DNA of 57,555 nt from Campylobacteraceae bacterium (GTDB taxonomy: Bacteria > Campylobacterota > Campylobacteria > Campylobacterales > Arcobacteraceae), in the NCBI GenBank assembly GCA_013373175.1, contig JABXII010000017.1, positions 1 to 57,555 on the forward strand. Reading direction: 5' to 3'. Positions within the stretch are counted from its first letter, which is position 1; every line of letters starts with the position of its first letter. The notes below the pieces were generated by a model. The model was not told the DNA's origin, did no database searches, and was given only the letters and a program-made list of their open reading frames with translations. Shown here in pieces: positions 5,396 to 10,554 of this stretch. The position numbers were made by a program, and so were the translations under genes.

Positions 5396-7186
5396 ATGGA
5401 ATTGGTTTATTTATGGGTAGAAGATTATAAAAATATAAAGAAACAAGGATTTAATTTTTCTCCTAGATTTAAGTGTGAATATGATGAAGAAAAAAATGAA
5501 TTAGCTATTGATGAAAATAAAGATTATGTAAGTATTTTTCCTGAGAATATTAATATTACTGCTATTGTTGGGGAGAATGGAGTAGGAAAAACTTCTCTCT
5601 TAAAATTTCTAATACAAATTTTAAATAATCGACACTATATGGTAAATGATTTTTTTGCAATATATATGGAAAATATTAGTAATAAAATTGTTTTTTATAA
5701 GCAAGGAAAAAACATAAATATTAAAAAGAACAAATATAAATTTGAAATATTTTGGGACAATGATTTAGAATCTAATTGGGTTAATTATAATTATAAATAT
5801 GAAGAAATTAGCTCAATTATACATAAACATAGTATTTTTAATAGATATGGTTCACTTAATACTTTTAAGCATATTCATATATTGAATAAATATAAAAACA
5901 TTTTATCAATAATAAATGATAAGTATTATTTTAATACTTTACAAGTAGTAATAAAAGAAAAAGATACTTCATTTATTAAAGAACATATGATAGATGGAGA
6001 AAATTATTACTTTAAAAAGGAAATTCAAGAATTACTATATAAATTTTTAGAAGATTTTAAGTGTCCTAATCAACCTCAAAATACTAATGATATTAATAGA
6101 ATATCTAAACAAAATGTATTAATTAAAAAAGAAAGATTGATGGAATATAACACATTACTTTTTTTTATACATTTTATTCAATTAAATAAAGATGAATATA
6201 GCCTAGATTTAGATGATGACCATATAGAAGATTGGATTAATAGTATAAAAGATTATAAAAATATTTATGATTTCTTAGATACTTTCGAAAATTTTTTACT
6301 AAAAAATGAACAATTTAATATATTCTATAATATATTTAATGAATTATATGGAAATATAAAATATTTAAAAGATATTCAAAATAATTTTATTAAGGATGAG
6401 GATAAAAAAGAGTATTTATTAAATTATTCATTGGATGATAAAAAAAAGATTGATGAAGTTATATCAAATACACAATATATCACAGGATTATCTTCAGAAG
6501 AGGTATTTTATTGTAATTTTATAGAATATAGATTTATGAATTTAGAAAAAAATATTTTTTTTGATGATTTAAGTGATGGAGAGAAGAATATATTACTTAT
6601 ATGTATTGATTTTTTGCATCAATTAGATTTAGAAAAAGAGAAGAATAAAATATTTGTTTTTGATGAAATAGATAATTCATTACATCCTTTTTGGAAAAAA
6701 GAACTTTTAAATATTATTATGAAACTATTAAAAGAATTTAAAGTTATCAATAATCATAATAAAACAACTAATATAATATTTACAACTCATTCACCATTTT
6801 TAATTTCTGATTTACCAAAAGAGAATGTATTATTTTTAGAAAAAGGAAAACAAGTTTATCCTTTTGAAGATAATCAACAAACTTTTGGAGCAAACATACA
6901 TACATTACTTTCACACGGTTTTTTTATGAAAGATGGACTTATGGGCGAGTTTGCAAAGGATAAAATAAATGAAGTATATGAGTATCTTACAAATTCAAAT
7001 ACTCAAAGTAAATTAACTCAAAAAGATGCTCAAAATATAATCAAATTAATTGGCGAACCTATTTTAAAAAAAGAACTACAATCAATTTTTGATAAAAAAT
7101 TTCAAGTTGATGACATAGACAAAAAGATAAGAGAACATGAAGAAGCAATAAAAAAACTTAAATCACAAAGAAATAACAATGATTAA
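5396..7186 (+). CDS. ABC/SMC-type ATPase of a Septu-like defence pair (PtuA-like)
   Basis: The 596-residue protein has a complete ABC/OLD-type ATPase core with a long helical insertion. Walker A is GENGVGKT at about residues 59-66. The signature LSDGE is at about 392-396. Walker B is KIFVFDEIDNSLHP with D423 and E424, and the H-loop is TTHSPF with His465. The last 30 residues are a charged helix. There is no TOPRIM domain after the H-loop, which argues against an OLD nuclease. The gene overlaps the downstream HNH nuclease gene by 8 bp, so the two are one operon. An AAA/ABC ATPase followed by an HNH nuclease is the Septu (PtuA-PtuB) anti-phage arrangement, and the same pair serves as effector in some retrons. 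No reverse transcriptase is seen. Family assignment is inferred from motifs and order. Confidence 0.75.
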   Translation: MELVYLWVEDYKNIKKQGFNFSPRFKCEYDEEKNELAIDENKDYVSIFPENINITAIVGENGVGKTSLLKFLIQILNNRHYMVNDFFAIYMENISNKIVFYKQGKNINIKKNKYKFEIFWDNDLESNWVNYNYKYEEISSIIHKHSIFNRYGSLNTFKHIHILNKYKNILSIINDKYYFNTLQVVIKEKDTSFIKEHMIDGENYYFKKEIQELLYKFLEDFKCPNQPQNTNDINRISKQNVLIKKERLMEYNTLLFFIHFIQLNKDEYSLDLDDDHIEDWINSIKDYKNIYDFLDTFENFLLKNEQFNIFYNIFNELYGNIKYLKDIQNNFIKDEDKKEYLLNYSLDDKKKIDEVISNTQYITGLSSEEVFYCNFIEYRFMNLEKNIFFDDLSDGEKNILLICIDFLHQLDLEKEKNKIFVFDEIDNSLHPFWKKELLNIIMKLLKEFKVINNHNKTTNIIFTTHSPFLISDLPKENVLFLEKGKQVYPFEDNQQTFGANIHTLLSHGFFMKDGLMGEFAKDKINEVYEYLTNSNTQSKLTQKDAQNIIKLIGEPILKKELQSIFDKKFQVDDIDKKIREHEEAIKKLKSQRNNND

Positions 7187-8102
7187 GCTAAAAGTCGATG
7201 AATCTATTATAGATGAGTTCTACAATGGAGTAAAAGGATATATTAATAAAACTATATTTACTACAGATGAATATAGTTACTTCACTGATAAAAAGATAGA
7301 ACAAATTATAAAGTGCAAGCCTAAAGATTTTGAAAGTTTATCTATAGAAATTGAAGCTCAATCTTTAAATCAAGATATTATTAGAAAAACTTTTGTTGGA
7401 GAAAAAGGATATAACAATGGATATAAAAAATTTTCTAGCAAAGATACGACAAAAAATAAAATACATTACAGAGCCTATAGTTTATCCGAAAAATTAAATA
7501 TTGATGTTTGTCCTTATTGTAATAAAAACTACACTTACACAATCGTAAATAAATCTAAGCAATATACAAGACCAGACTTTGACCACTTTTTAGCAAAAGA
7601 AAAATATCCATATTTTGCACTCTCTTTTTATAATCTAATACCTTCCTGTCAAGTATGTAATAGAACATTAAAGCATACTATAGAGTTTTCTTTAGATAAT
7701 TATATCCATCCGTATCAAGATGATTTTAATTCAATAAAAAAATTTACAACAAATAAACCTCTTGTATTATGCACAAATGAAGATGATTTTAAAATAGTTT
7801 TTGAAGATAAATCTGATAATGAAATTTTAACTGAAAAAGCAAATAATAATATCAAAGATTTAGCATTAGAGTTGCAATACAACAAACACAAAGATATAGT
7901 AATAGAGCTAAAAGACAAGTATGATTTATATAATGATGATTCATTACAAAATATTTTAAAAGATACAAATGTATTCAAAAAAAAAGGGGAAAAATATATA
8001 AAATCTTTAATTATGGGTGTAAATGAAAAAGATGAAAATATAAACAAACGCCCTCTTTCCAAACTTATAAAAGATATAAGTGAAGAGTTAGATTTATTAT
8101 AA
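7179..8102 (+). CDS. HNH endonuclease partner (PtuB-like)
   Basis: The 307-residue protein carries an HNH nuclease fold in its middle. The first metal-binding pair is CPYC at C111 and C114. The catalytic-type PDFDHFLAKEKYPYFAL is next, with D135 and H136. The second metal pair and HNH asparagine follow in SFYNLIPSCQVCNRTLKH, with C157, C160 and N161. The DHFL-YP-NL-P-C-x2-CN pattern is that expected of PtuB. The N-terminal 100 residues and the C-terminal 130 residues are helical and charged and probably contact the ATPase. Its ATG lies inside the last codons of the ATPase gene, so the proteins are probably made together. The complex is expected to cut DNA, or possibly tRNA in related systems, during phage infection. 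The target is not visible from sequence. Confidence 0.78.
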   Translation: MIKLKVDESIIDEFYNGVKGYINKTIFTTDEYSYFTDKKIEQIIKCKPKDFESLSIEIEAQSLNQDIIRKTFVGEKGYNNGYKKFSSKDTTKNKIHYRAYSLSEKLNIDVCPYCNKNYTYTIVNKSKQYTRPDFDHFLAKEKYPYFALSFYNLIPSCQVCNRTLKHTIEFSLDNYIHPYQDDFNSIKKFTTNKPLVLCTNEDDFKIVFEDKSDNEILTEKANNNIKDLALELQYNKHKDIVIELKDKYDLYNDDSLQNILKDTNVFKKKGEKYIKSLIMGVNEKDENINKRPLSKLIKDISEELDLL

Positions 8103-8116
8103 AATTGAAAATAAAT

Positions 8117-8150
8117 CCTAATAAAAAGAATTTTCTTTCTTTTTATTAGG
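8117..8150. terminator. Strong hairpin after the Septu-like operon, usable on both strands
   Basis: CCTAATAAAAAGAA pairs with its complement at 8137-8150 around a 6-base loop, giving 14 base pairs. It begins 15 bp after the nuclease stop codon. On the minus strand it is followed by a T-rich run (ATTTATTTTC), so it could also end a transcript coming from the promoter at 8313-8341. Confidence 0.7.
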
Positions 8151-8175
8151 TTAATGCTTTTAAGCAAATTATCAT

Positions 8176-8192
8176 ACTACAAATTATGTAGT
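8176..8192. repeat. Short inverted repeat ACTACA-AATTA-TGTAGT
   Basis: A perfect 6-bp inverted repeat with a 5-base centre lies in the region without genes. It could be a small RNA stem or a protein site. No further meaning can be assigned. Confidence 0.4.
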
Positions 8193-8253
8193 TTGAATAA
8201 AGAGTAGATTGAAGTTCCATAATTATTTATGAGAACTAAATCGGGGGAAGGGA

Positions 8254-8269
8254 TTAACCAGATAGTCAA
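8254..8269. promoter_or_regulatory. Degenerate third TetR-type operator
   Basis: TTAACCAGATAGTCAA keeps one perfect half (ATAGTCAA) of the 16-bp dyad seen at 8326-8341, with a weak other half. Its centre is 39 bp from the middle operator. Confidence 0.4.
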
Positions 8270-8293
8270 GCCATGGACACAAAAAAAGGGACA

Positions 8294-8307
8294 TGACTAT
8301 TTAGTCA
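8294..8307. promoter_or_regulatory. TetR-type operator covering a predicted start site
   Basis: TGACTATTTAGTCA is a perfect 6+6 inverted repeat with a 2-base centre. It overlaps the predicted transcription start of the leftward promoter, so a bound repressor would block initiation. Confidence 0.65.
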
Positions 8308-8312
8308 AGAAA

Positions 8313-8341
8313 ATTATAGCAAACTTTGACTATATAGTCAA
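8313..8341 (-). promoter_or_regulatory. Near-consensus sigma-70 promoter firing leftwards, embedded in an operator
   Basis: On the minus strand TTGACT (8336-8341) and TATAAT (8313-8318) are separated by exactly 17 bases. Few other promoters in this window have a recognisable -35 box. The -35 lies inside the palindrome at 8326-8341. No obvious protein-coding gene lies downstream before the terminator hairpin at 8117-8150. Confidence 0.65.
8326..8341. promoter_or_regulatory. Perfect 16-bp palindromic operator, TetR type
   Basis: TTGACTATATAGTCAA is a perfect palindrome, with a close copy at 8294-8307. It ends 6 bp from the stop of the tetR gene. Length and symmetry are typical of TetR/AcrR operators, and binding by the neighbouring TetR is inferred. 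It overlaps the -35 of the leftward promoter. Confidence 0.65.
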
Positions 8342-8347
8342 GAAATT

Positions 8348-8920
8348 TTATTCTTTTATTTTAATTTGGTCAAAAAAAACTTTTAGTTGTTTCATACAAA
8401 CTTCAAAATGTTTTCCATCTTGTGATTTCTTTGCAGTAGATAAAGCACCTTCAATAGTTGCTACAACGAATATTGCTAATTCTTTAATATCTTTATATTC
8501 TAACTCATTGTTCTCTTTTGCTTTTTGTAATACATTATATATAATGCCTTCAAAATGAGTATATACTTTTTCTAGTGCATCTTTAAAATCTTTATCTTGG
8601 TGAGATAACTCTTGCACTAAAGTATTTAATCTACATCCAAAAGTAAAGTTAAAAGAGTCTTTATTTTCTAAGACTTTGAACATAGAATCTATATAATTAC
8701 TTTCTGAGTCTAAAATAGCACCATACTTCTTATCAATATATTCAAATATATGAGCATCAATAACTGCTAACATTAACTCTTTTTTAGACTTAAAAAAGTG
8801 ATACATACTTCCTTTATTCATCTTTGCTTTTTTAAGTATCTTATCAACAGATGTTGCATAATAACCATTTTCATATATTTCATCAAATGTGACTTTTAGT
8901 AATCTATCTTTGCTACTCAT
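8348..8920 (-). CDS. TetR/AcrR-family transcriptional repressor
   Basis: The 190-residue protein opens with the TetR DNA-binding domain: KVTFDEIYENGYYATSVDKI followed by the recognition helix region KAKMNKGSMYHFFKSKKEL (about residues 8-50). The C-terminal part (about 60-190) is an all-helical ligand-binding domain with a TetR_C-like ending. It lies 8 bp downstream of the lysE-type gene and has its own AAGGAAA ribosome site. TetR repressors usually bind small molecules and control exporters or detoxification genes next to them. Three matching dyads lie just beyond its 3' end, not upstream, which is unusual. The inducer cannot be predicted. Confidence 0.9.
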   Translation of the reverse strand: MSSKDRLLKVTFDEIYENGYYATSVDKILKKAKMNKGSMYHFFKSKKELMLAVIDAHIFEYIDKKYGAILDSESNYIDSMFKVLENKDSFNFTFGCRLNTLVQELSHQDKDFKDALEKVYTHFEGIIYNVLQKAKENNELEYKDIKELAIFVVATIEGALSTAKKSQDGKHFEVCMKQLKVFFDQIKIKE

Positions 8921-8928
8921 ATATTTCC

Positions 8929-9561
8929 TTATTTACTTAGTGCGATTTTTATTCCTAGAGATATTAAAACAGTACCAACTACTCTATCAAACCAAATTCC
9001 AAATTTATTGAAAAACTTTCTCACGCTATCTTTTGTTAAAAATAGTGATGCAATTACAAAATACACTGTTGTTAATAACACACAAAATAGTCCATAAATA
9101 ACTTGAACAAGAATCGGAGTATCAATACTAATTACAACTGTAAACATTGATAAAAAAAATAGTGTTGCCTTTGGATTTAGTGCATTACATAAAAATCCTA
9201 CCATAAAAGATTTAAAATCACTCATACTTTCATGATATTTTATATTATTTTCATCAATTTTAAAACCTTTTGACTTCAAACTTGCTATCCCAAGATATAT
9301 TAAATATGCAGCACCTAAATACTTTATGATATTAAAAAGTATAATTGATTTTGAAATAATAAGTCCAATTCCTAAGATACAATAAATAATATGTACTGAA
9401 ATTCCAAGACCTATTCCAATACTTGTAAAAATAGAAGCTCTTCTTCCATAAGTAATACTTTGTTTAAATACCATTGCAAAATCTGGACCTGGAGATAAAA
9501 GAGCAATAATCAATGCTAACATTAAAATTGTGAACTCATTTATATATAAAGTAAAATCCAT
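8929..9561 (-). CDS. LysE/RhtB-family amino-acid exporter
   Basis: The 210-residue inner-membrane protein has about six hydrophobic segments. The family opening is seen in IIALLSPGPDFAMVFKQSI (about residues 18-36) and KYLGAAYLIYLGIASLKSK (about 84-102). A second half includes CNALNPKATLFFLSMFT (about 124-140). These are the hallmarks of RhtB/LysE exporters, which expel amino acids or related metabolites. It is 9 bp downstream of the helix-turn-helix regulator gene and 8 bp upstream of tetR, so all three are probably co-transcribed leftwards. Substrate is unknown. The normal length and intact motifs suggest a working transporter. Confidence 0.88.
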   Translation of the reverse strand: MDFTLYINEFTILMLALIIALLSPGPDFAMVFKQSITYGRRASIFTSIGIGLGISVHIIYCILGIGLIISKSIILFNIIKYLGAAYLIYLGIASLKSKGFKIDENNIKYHESMSDFKSFMVGFLCNALNPKATLFFLSMFTVVISIDTPILVQVIYGLFCVLLTTVYFVIASLFLTKDSVRKFFNKFGIWFDRVVGTVLISLGIKIALSK

Positions 9562-9570
9562 AATTTACCT

Positions 9571-10554
9571 TTAGTTTCTTTTTTGTCCAGGTTTTGGCTG
9601 ACTTACTTGTTTTTGTAAATCTACACTCAGGTTATTGAAAAATAATTCTCCATAATCTGTTGTTCTATTTATAGTTTCATATGCTTGTAATATACTATTG
9701 TTATATCTTACCGCGTCTTTTAATATATTTATAATATTAATTGACTCTAAGAAGTTTACATGAGATGGAGCTTCTACTGGTGAAGAATAGTATTTGTGCA
9801 TTCTTTCAACTAAGTTCTTGTTTCTAATCTCTATAAATACAGACTCAATAGGAGATTTAAAGAAAAGTATTTTTTGTTTTACATTTATCGATATGTATGT
9901 TGTTTCCATTCCATATATTTTTCTTGAAAAAGAATCAAACAAAAAAAGTTTTTTATTATAGTTATTGTTAAATAATTCATATATAAGTTCTAAAATCTTT
10001 ATTTTTTCTTCTTTAGTATAGTAATTACCTATTGTAGAAAAACAGAATGAAAGTACTGACTTAATTGAATACCACTCTGTCGTATCATAATCATACTTTA
10101 GCATTTGGTCAATTCTACTTTGTTTTAATTCTTCTATCTCATTTGATGTTTTTGTTCGATATACTCTTTTAACGGCTGTATCTCTATACATAGGACCAGG
10201 AAATTGTGCTTGTATTACAAATCTTCTATTTCTTTCTAAATCCATTATGTACTTTAATCTTCCGTAATAATCTTCATCAATAATTCTTACTTCTTTTTGA
10301 GGAATTTGAGTAATTGACTTTACAAACTCATCGCCAGTACATCCTTCTTCCCAAATAAAATCTGGATATCTAAATATTGTACAAATCTTTTGTTTTACAT
10401 CATCATTTGGTTCAATATCAGAAATGTTATCAATCCAAGAAGTGACTGTTCTTCTATCTTTTTGAATTAATGAAGCAAATTTTGATATACTTAGATTAGA
10501 TCTTTTAAAAATCTCTATAAACTTCTCTATTCCATTTTTATACATCATTTTCAA
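9571..10554 (-). CDS. Helix-turn-helix regulator, candidate regulator of the propionate operon
   Basis: The 327-residue protein has an N-terminal XRE-like helix-turn-helix at about residues 8-60, with SISKFASLIQKDRRTVTSWI as the likely DNA-reading part. The remaining 250 residues are not recognised. They contain YYGRLKYIMDLERNRRFV and an aromatic-rich mixed alpha/beta region, perhaps a ligand or effector domain. It is divergent from prpB across a 171-bp gap that contains two TTGTAC-type sites, the usual arrangement of an operon and its regulator. Known propionate regulators in other phyla are sigma-54 activators (PrpR), GntR types or the ScfR group of XRE proteins. This gene looks like none of the first two. 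The role in prp control is inference from position. Confidence 0.65.
   Translation of the reverse strand: MKMMYKNGIEKFIEIFKRSNLSISKFASLIQKDRRTVTSWIDNISDIEPNDDVKQKICTIFRYPDFIWEEGCTGDEFVKSITQIPQKEVRIIDEDYYGRLKYIMDLERNRRFVIQAQFPGPMYRDTAVKRVYRTKTSNEIEELKQSRIDQMLKYDYDTTEWYSIKSVLSFCFSTIGNYYTKEEKIKILELIYELFNNNYNKKLFLFDSFSRKIYGMETTYISINVKQKILFFKSPIESVFIEIRNKNLVERMHKYYSSPVEAPSHVNFLESINIINILKDAVRYNNSILQAYETINRTTDYGELFFNNLSVDLQKQVSQPKPGQKRN

Follow-up and report, generated by a model that had tools for sequence, protein, structure and literature searches.

A conserved candidate small RNA gene beside a TetR-family repressor gene in arcobacters

In a 57,555-nucleotide stretch of an arcobacter genome (the window; the genome itself is identified below as G000), the minus-strand interval next to a TetR-family gene is most likely a constrained RNA gene and not a decayed gene start. 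This reading follows from the conservation of the whole block, its stable predicted fold, the lack of a kept reading frame, and a covariance-model search of positions 7900 to 8600 against Rfam 15, which gave no match up to an E value of 1. We consider it fairly probable that the interval holds a small non-coding RNA gene that the adjacent TetR repressor controls and a ligand induces, and that its RNA pairs with mRNAs without Hfq. The initial annotation had raised the possibility of an undescribed TetR-regulated RNA; the RNA half of that idea is supported by the conservation, fold, and frame data below, and TetR control is what we infer from gene order, from palindromes lying over the -35 element and the start site, and from the constant spacing of these palindromes. 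The features are collected in Table 1.

Table 1. Predicted features of the TetR-RNA unit (positions in the window)
Feature	Position	Strand	Remarks
TetR-family repressor gene	8348..8920	-	TetR_N + TetR_C_13/13_2 (Pfam); presumed repressor of the RNA
Operator 1, TTGACTATATAGTCAA	8326..8341	-	Perfect palindrome; includes -35 TTGACT
Promoter TTGACT-17-TATAAT, TG before -10	8313..8341	-	Pattern conserved
Operator 2	8293..8308	-	1 or 2 mismatches, depending on strand; over predicted start at ~8306
Predicted non-coding RNA, ~193 nt	8114..8306	-	From conservation and fold
Pyrimidine-rich segment GTCCCTTTTTTTGTGTCCA, between operators 2 and 3	8274..8292	-	Mostly unpaired in predicted fold
Operator 3	8254..8269	-	2 mismatches; within transcribed region, 39 bp after operator 2
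C-rich segment CCCTTCCCCC	8243..8252	-	Unpaired in predicted fold; TTCCCCC in 5/5 genomes
Stem-loop GTTCTCATA...TATGGAAC	8214..8236	-	In 4/5 genomes; different fold in G005
Stem-loop ACTAC-loop-GTAGT	8176..8192	-	Arms kept in 5/5 genomes
Small stem-loop TGCTTAAAAGCA	8155..8166	-
14-pair terminator of the RNA	8117..8150	-	Terminator-like stem

The promoter, which begins a few bases past the end of the TetR gene, had been described as nearly perfect, and with 11 of 12 matches it was indeed the top-ranked of the 47 promoter-like sites between 5 and 12 kb. The number of such sites was at the level of chance (47, versus a shuffle mean of 53.7 over the same 5 to 12 kb), so the score by itself proves little. 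The -35 element is likewise weak evidence taken singly, since TTGAC belongs to the operator and the site count does not exceed chance; TTGACT also forms the first half of operator 1 and could resemble a -35 only for that reason, in which case TGnTATAAT might by itself be the core promoter. The real evidence that this promoter stands above chance is its conservation. The promoter plus two-operator pattern (3 mismatches allowed), which was written from these same loci, was present in 10 genomes of this genus and one other among the 104 of the family, and the reversed control pattern was present in none.

The three operators share the palindrome form TTGACTAWWTAGTCAA and are spaced 33 and then 37 to 40 bp apart in all 11 loci compared. 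A close orthologue of the TetR gene is present in 11 genomes besides this one, of 16 in the genus; ten are whole and 55 to 93% identical, and the eleventh (G012) is split over contig ends. The remaining four genomes (G001, G004, G014, and G015) have distant matches only, the best-scoring of which is 35% identical (G004). Palindromic operators over the promoter are conserved together with the adjacent TetR gene, with one exception: in G011 the gene is present and no operators were found. TetR presumably binds these palindromes and represses the promoter. Operator-like sites with one mismatch also occur elsewhere in the genome (L002, L003, L004, and L006), but we set them aside, as they come without a convincing promoter and their counts do not exceed the reversed control (15 + 13 versus 13 + 19).

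By sequence, the RNA unit has its own promoter and its own terminator, both conserved. With transcription starting at about 8306, an estimate from the -10 spacing, the predicted transcript runs to 191 to 197 nt in the five genomes that carry it, in agreement with the earlier observation of a 14-bp terminator some 190 to 200 nt downstream of the promoter; 3 terminator-like sites were found, versus 1.2 expected. The absence of a credible protein frame with a ribosome site in this interval was also confirmed, as no open reading frame (ORF) of at least 10 aa in any of the five RNAs was preceded by a Shine-Dalgarno-like sequence.

The block from operator 1 to the terminator is conserved in 5 of the 16 genus genomes (G000, G010, G009, G003, and G005). 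A BLAST search with the block gave matches in 7 of the 16, 5 of them nearly full length, and across 104 family genomes the same search gave one nearly full-length copy in each of 5, with short partial matches only, several of them to the promoter, in 18 further genomes. The other four carriers were 93, 92, 91, and 75% identical to this genome over the block. When gaps were counted as differences, identity of the RNA core to this genome was 94, 93, 86, and 70% (unrounded, 0.938, 0.927, 0.859, and 0.702), compared with 75, 68, 63, and 37% (0.750, 0.680, 0.627, and 0.371) at fourfold-degenerate sites of the neighboring TetR and LysE genes. The RNA was the more similar of the two in each of the 10 genome pairs; the fourfold values involving G005 draw on TetR alone (35 to 39 sites) and are probably near saturation. 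The block also has sharp bounds. In 20-column bins over the four closest genomes, 0.7 to 0.95 of the columns were invariant inside the block, 0.2 just before operator 1 (an edge that includes an 18-column gap in two genomes), and 0.15 to 0.3 past the terminator, where G000 and G010 resemble each other because both contain the defense gene pair described below. As far as these comparisons indicate, purifying selection acts on the sequence, and no reading frame is conserved. The refuting case named in the initial annotation, that relatives reveal a decayed gene start, is therefore unlikely: what they reveal is a sharply bounded block, more conserved than fourfold sites and not freely decaying.

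The predicted fold is stable, with z-scores between -5.1 and -7.5 for the whole RNA in the five genomes and between -2.0 (G005) and -5.8 when operators and terminator were left out. Covariation is weak overall, and the covariation energy term, calculated from only five RNA-carrying genomes, is unfavorable (+2.04). The ACTAC hairpin keeps its arms around four different loops, one of them common to G000 and G010, and the terminator stem shows a single A-U to U-A exchange, in G005. The GTCCCTTTTTTTGTGTCCA segment is invariant in all five RNAs, save for one additional T in two of them. We also considered selection for pairing between operators 2 and 3 within the RNA and rejected it: the two pair no better than the untranscribed operator 1 does with operator 3, so this pairing shows no selection of its own.

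The initial annotation had asked which gene follows the promoter in relatives. Peptide, EamA, or tautomerase genes do stand behind related promoters. The RNA block lies 3' of TetR in its five carriers, and in G002, G006, G007, and G012 the same place is taken by a hydrophobic ORF of 28 to 30 aa with a ribosome site. In G013, an EamA exporter gene behind two operators is followed by a second, three-operator promoter and a small ORF, and in G008 tautomerase-like and isochorismatase genes lie 3' of TetR. Outside the genus, G050 has the three-operator promoter type, and locus L048 has a 48-bp promoter sequence identical to that of G050, followed by a small ORF of 27 aa. In total, six species other than the RNA carriers, five within the genus and one from outside, have a hydrophobic ORF of 27 to 30 aa after the three-operator promoter. 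Behind two operators 35 to 36 bp apart (33 bp in L061; a single operator was recognized in L057, and L058 is cut off before the operator region), further relatives carry EamA, tautomerase, or isochorismatase genes or another type of small ORF. Pfam was run only on the EamA gene of L013 and two genes of L017, and the genes of the other relatives are named by resemblance. Since relatives carry genes behind related promoters, the RNA may have replaced such a gene or descended from one.

The peptide ORFs (e.g., MKKIIGIVVFGFSMATLVVMMYTPGSIFYS) were read with their ribosome sites in L012, L013, L014, L015, L018, and L048. The peptide is hydrophobic and probably located in the membrane. As a sign of coding, its ORF shows just a mild third-position excess: 15 pairs gave 111, 87, and 145 differences at the three codon positions. 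In this class, the leader between operators 2 and 3 is a pyrimidine-rich sequence other than that of the RNA class and is nearly identical in five of six loci, L048 being the exception; G002, G006, G012, and G013 share GATCTTCTTTCGTCTCAAAA exactly, G007 has one base inserted in it, and the leader of G050/L048 differs. Three further arrangements were seen. Two TetR-operator promoters stand in tandem in G013 (L013/L046), with two operators for the EamA exporter and three for the small ORF. In L051 and L052, a different small ORF (26 aa, MSQ...) lies behind a two-operator promoter. In L042 (G007:C25:89430-89459), one perfect operator lies just past a TATACT -10 element upstream of genes for 153 and 117 aa, so that this locus, too, may belong to the TetR regulon.

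The relation between the two classes allows a reading in which the peptide branch and the RNA branch share a promoter and repressor, a once dual-purpose transcript lost its frame in the latter, and selection has held it there as a purely non-coding regulator. We put forward such a coding-to-noncoding switch, which would have turned a stress RNA into a regulator under a constant ligand-sensing repressor in bacteria lacking Hfq, only tentatively and on balance do not favor it. The alternative that the region is just a decaying remnant of the sister-species peptide gene, with ribosome site, start codon, and frame lost and a functionless transcript, is unlikely. Descent of the RNA from the peptide gene, which both readings share, is possible: the same three-operator promoter precedes ORFs of 27 to 30 aa with a ribosome site in G002, G006, G007, G012, G013, and G050, and 6 of 30 local alignments between RNAs and ORFs reached z > 3, five of them with G050. 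Those of G000, G003, and G009 with G050 start equidistant from the promoter to within 1 nt, the G005-G012 alignment starts within 6 nt of the same distance, and the best score was reached by 0 to 15 of 400 shuffles under two of three gap settings. Under the third setting, however, 32 to 272 of 400 shuffles did as well in every genome but G005, where none did. The longer alignment of G005 with G050 lies at another place, and the RNAs gave no match to a profile built from the peptide ORFs; taken together, these three results leave even descent unproven. Functionless decay, moreover, is at odds with conservation far above that of fourfold sites, sharp bounds, and a stable structure.

Quite unlikely, too, is a role mainly as DNA, in which the operator array would titrate or autoregulate TetR or shield the downstream gene from read-through and the RNA would be incidental. 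The three operators are well spaced in 11 of 11 loci compared, and each class strongly conserves its own sequence between operators 2 and 3, as such a role might have it, but about 100 nt conserved between operator 3 and the terminator, along with their folding, would be left unexplained. So would the terminator, which G003 retains even with thyA next in the same direction. That the RNA encodes a very small protein missed by the usual rules (MELQSTLY... or a leaderless MSLF...) is very unlikely. Four of the five genomes have ATGGAACTTCAATCTACTCTTTAT unchanged, and a leaderless ATGTCCC start is found in four of five, but both start codons are missing in G005, there is no ribosome site, and indels and substitutions give the frames differing ends: 24, 22, 15, and 24 aa for the MELQ frame and 23, 10, under 10, and 48 aa for the MSLF frame in G000, G010, G009, and G003, respectively. 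Finally, a 5' leader or attenuator for the downstream gene (thyA lies in the same direction in G003) or an antisense RNA of the nuclease gene (convergent in this window) is extremely improbable, as the next gene varies from a convergent HNH gene (G000, G010, and G005) to an opposite-strand autotransporter gene (G009) and thyA (G003).

The defense genes appear unrelated to the RNA. An ATPase and HNH nuclease pair lies between thyA and the RNA block (5396-8102, plus strand); its best PADLOC matches are to the candidate system PDC-M62A/B, with weaker ones to Septu PtuA/PtuB. A same-type HNH gene occupies the corresponding site in G010 and G005, the autotransporter gene of G009 stands where the HNH gene would be, and G003 has no defense pair, the RNA block lying directly before thyA. 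The RNA is complete in all five carriers, with or without the pair, and its completeness in G003 and G009 removes two further suggestions about the promoter. It does not serve an RNA antisense to the nuclease 3' end, because these two genomes have no adjacent nuclease gene and the terminator is reached before that 3' end; nor is the region the remnant of a gene displaced when the defense pair entered, because G003, which has no pair there, has the same RNA directly before thyA.

For the preferred reading, a TetR-controlled regulatory RNA, we propose the following mechanism. TetR would sit on operator 1 at the -35 element, operator 2 at the start site, and operator 3 inside the transcript, thereby shutting the promoter. 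It would be released by a small molecule such as EamA/LysE exporters, isochorismatase, or tautomerase deal with, upon which an RNA of about 190 nt would accumulate. The exporter, tautomerase, and isochorismatase genes behind related promoters suggest that the inducer is an exogenous aromatic or amino acid-like compound. The C-terminal domain of this TetR is LmrA/YxaF-like (match to PF21993), and LmrA/YxaF-type regulators respond to flavonoids, which points toward the same type of inducer. The RNA would then regulate mRNAs by base pairing. Its C/U-rich segments GTCCCTTTTTTTGTGTCC and CCTTCCCCC, predicted to be unpaired, seem apt partners for G-rich ribosome sites and would make the contact; pairing is the least certain step. 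It would proceed without Hfq, for which no match was found in any of the 16 genus genomes by a search that was positive in 5 of 14 control genomes. This result agrees with PMC3847290, according to which Campylobacter jejuni lacks Hfq.

Given two nearly invariant C/U-rich segments that are unpaired in the prediction, and the C/U-rich loops through which RNAs of this phylum such as RepG can act, pairing to G-rich translation starts is the most likely mode of action. When the five genomes were searched with the complements of the two segments, no translation start turned up with a conserved match. For the 19-nt segment, the complement had 12 sites, 5 of which are the RNA locus itself; the other 7 all have 3 mismatches, and we took them as unrelated. 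They comprise a site inside a long ORF common to G003, G009, and G010 (presumably pheT), one shared by G000 and G010 in an intergenic inverted repeat that is probably a terminator, and two inside other ORFs. For the complement of the C-run before an ATG, 72 sites were listed in the five genomes, and the 30 inspected included one plausible gene start (G010, L095, 232 aa), whose matched string also occurs in G005 and is absent from G000, G003, and G009 among the sites listed. With the complement of the peptide-class leader, searches of five genomes returned the leader's own locus every time, plus four sites that lie within ORFs. The EamA exporter was rejected as a common target, a homologue of at least 50% identity being present in just two of the five RNA genomes.

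TetR regulators of the LmrA/YxaF type control efflux and cupin-type genes, and to our knowledge the known members regulate protein genes; the regulator described here has a similar C-terminal domain, but its adjacent unit is non-coding. The quorum-sensing master regulator LuxR/HapR of vibrios is also of the TetR type and is linked to several Qrr RNAs, whereas here one TetR gene is found with one adjacent RNA. We know of no arcobacter small RNA with a worked-out function; none from arcobacters or Halarcobacter appeared among the literature matches listed, nor did any TetR repressor with an adjacent small RNA, and the literature search found no paper on RamR/StyR-3.

By analogy, the arcobacter unit as predicted works most like SgrR-SgrS/SgrT, without being a member of that system. 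The regulator gene there adjoins the RNA gene, the RNA has its own terminator, SgrR also controls the efflux pump gene setA (PMC8672173, PMC4021124), and the ORF of the small protein SgrT is present in "a subset" (PMC8672173) or "most" (PMC4021124) of species. SgrR, however, is an activator and not of the TetR type, SgrS binds Hfq, which had no match in the genus genomes here, and no sequence relation was seen; in arcobacters, moreover, the RNA form and the peptide form occur in different species. RepG of Helicobacter pylori is likewise a Campylobacterota RNA, whose exposed C/U-rich loop does the pairing (PMC8295292); it differs in using its terminator loop and in adjoining an orphan response regulator gene, and no G-run target was found here. 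VcdRP of Vibrio cholerae is a repressor-controlled RNA that encodes a peptide of 29 aa and pairs through a run of four Cs (PMC8672173). Its repressor is CRP, and every species tested in that work has the peptide and the pairing site together on a single RNA, unlike in arcobacters. If our reading is true, the unit would be a compact case of chemical stress signaling through RNA without Hfq, in which a local ligand-sensing TetR has an RNA as its neighbor where a gene for efflux or detoxification would be usual, and the peptide-bearing sister species would offer a direct test of replacement between an RNA regulator and a small protein.

Two genes beyond TetR recur in relatives. In many of the relatives examined, the TetR unit has as a neighbor the gene of a 327-aa protein (9571-10554) with an apparent helix-turn-helix N terminus (SISKFASLIQKDRRTVTSW) and no Pfam match at an E value of 0.001. 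A LysE-family exporter gene (8929-9561) lies directly upstream of TetR in G000, G003, G009, G010, G006, and G013; it is missing from that place in G002, G005, G007, and G011, and in L057 a LysE-like gene lies behind an EamA-like gene instead.
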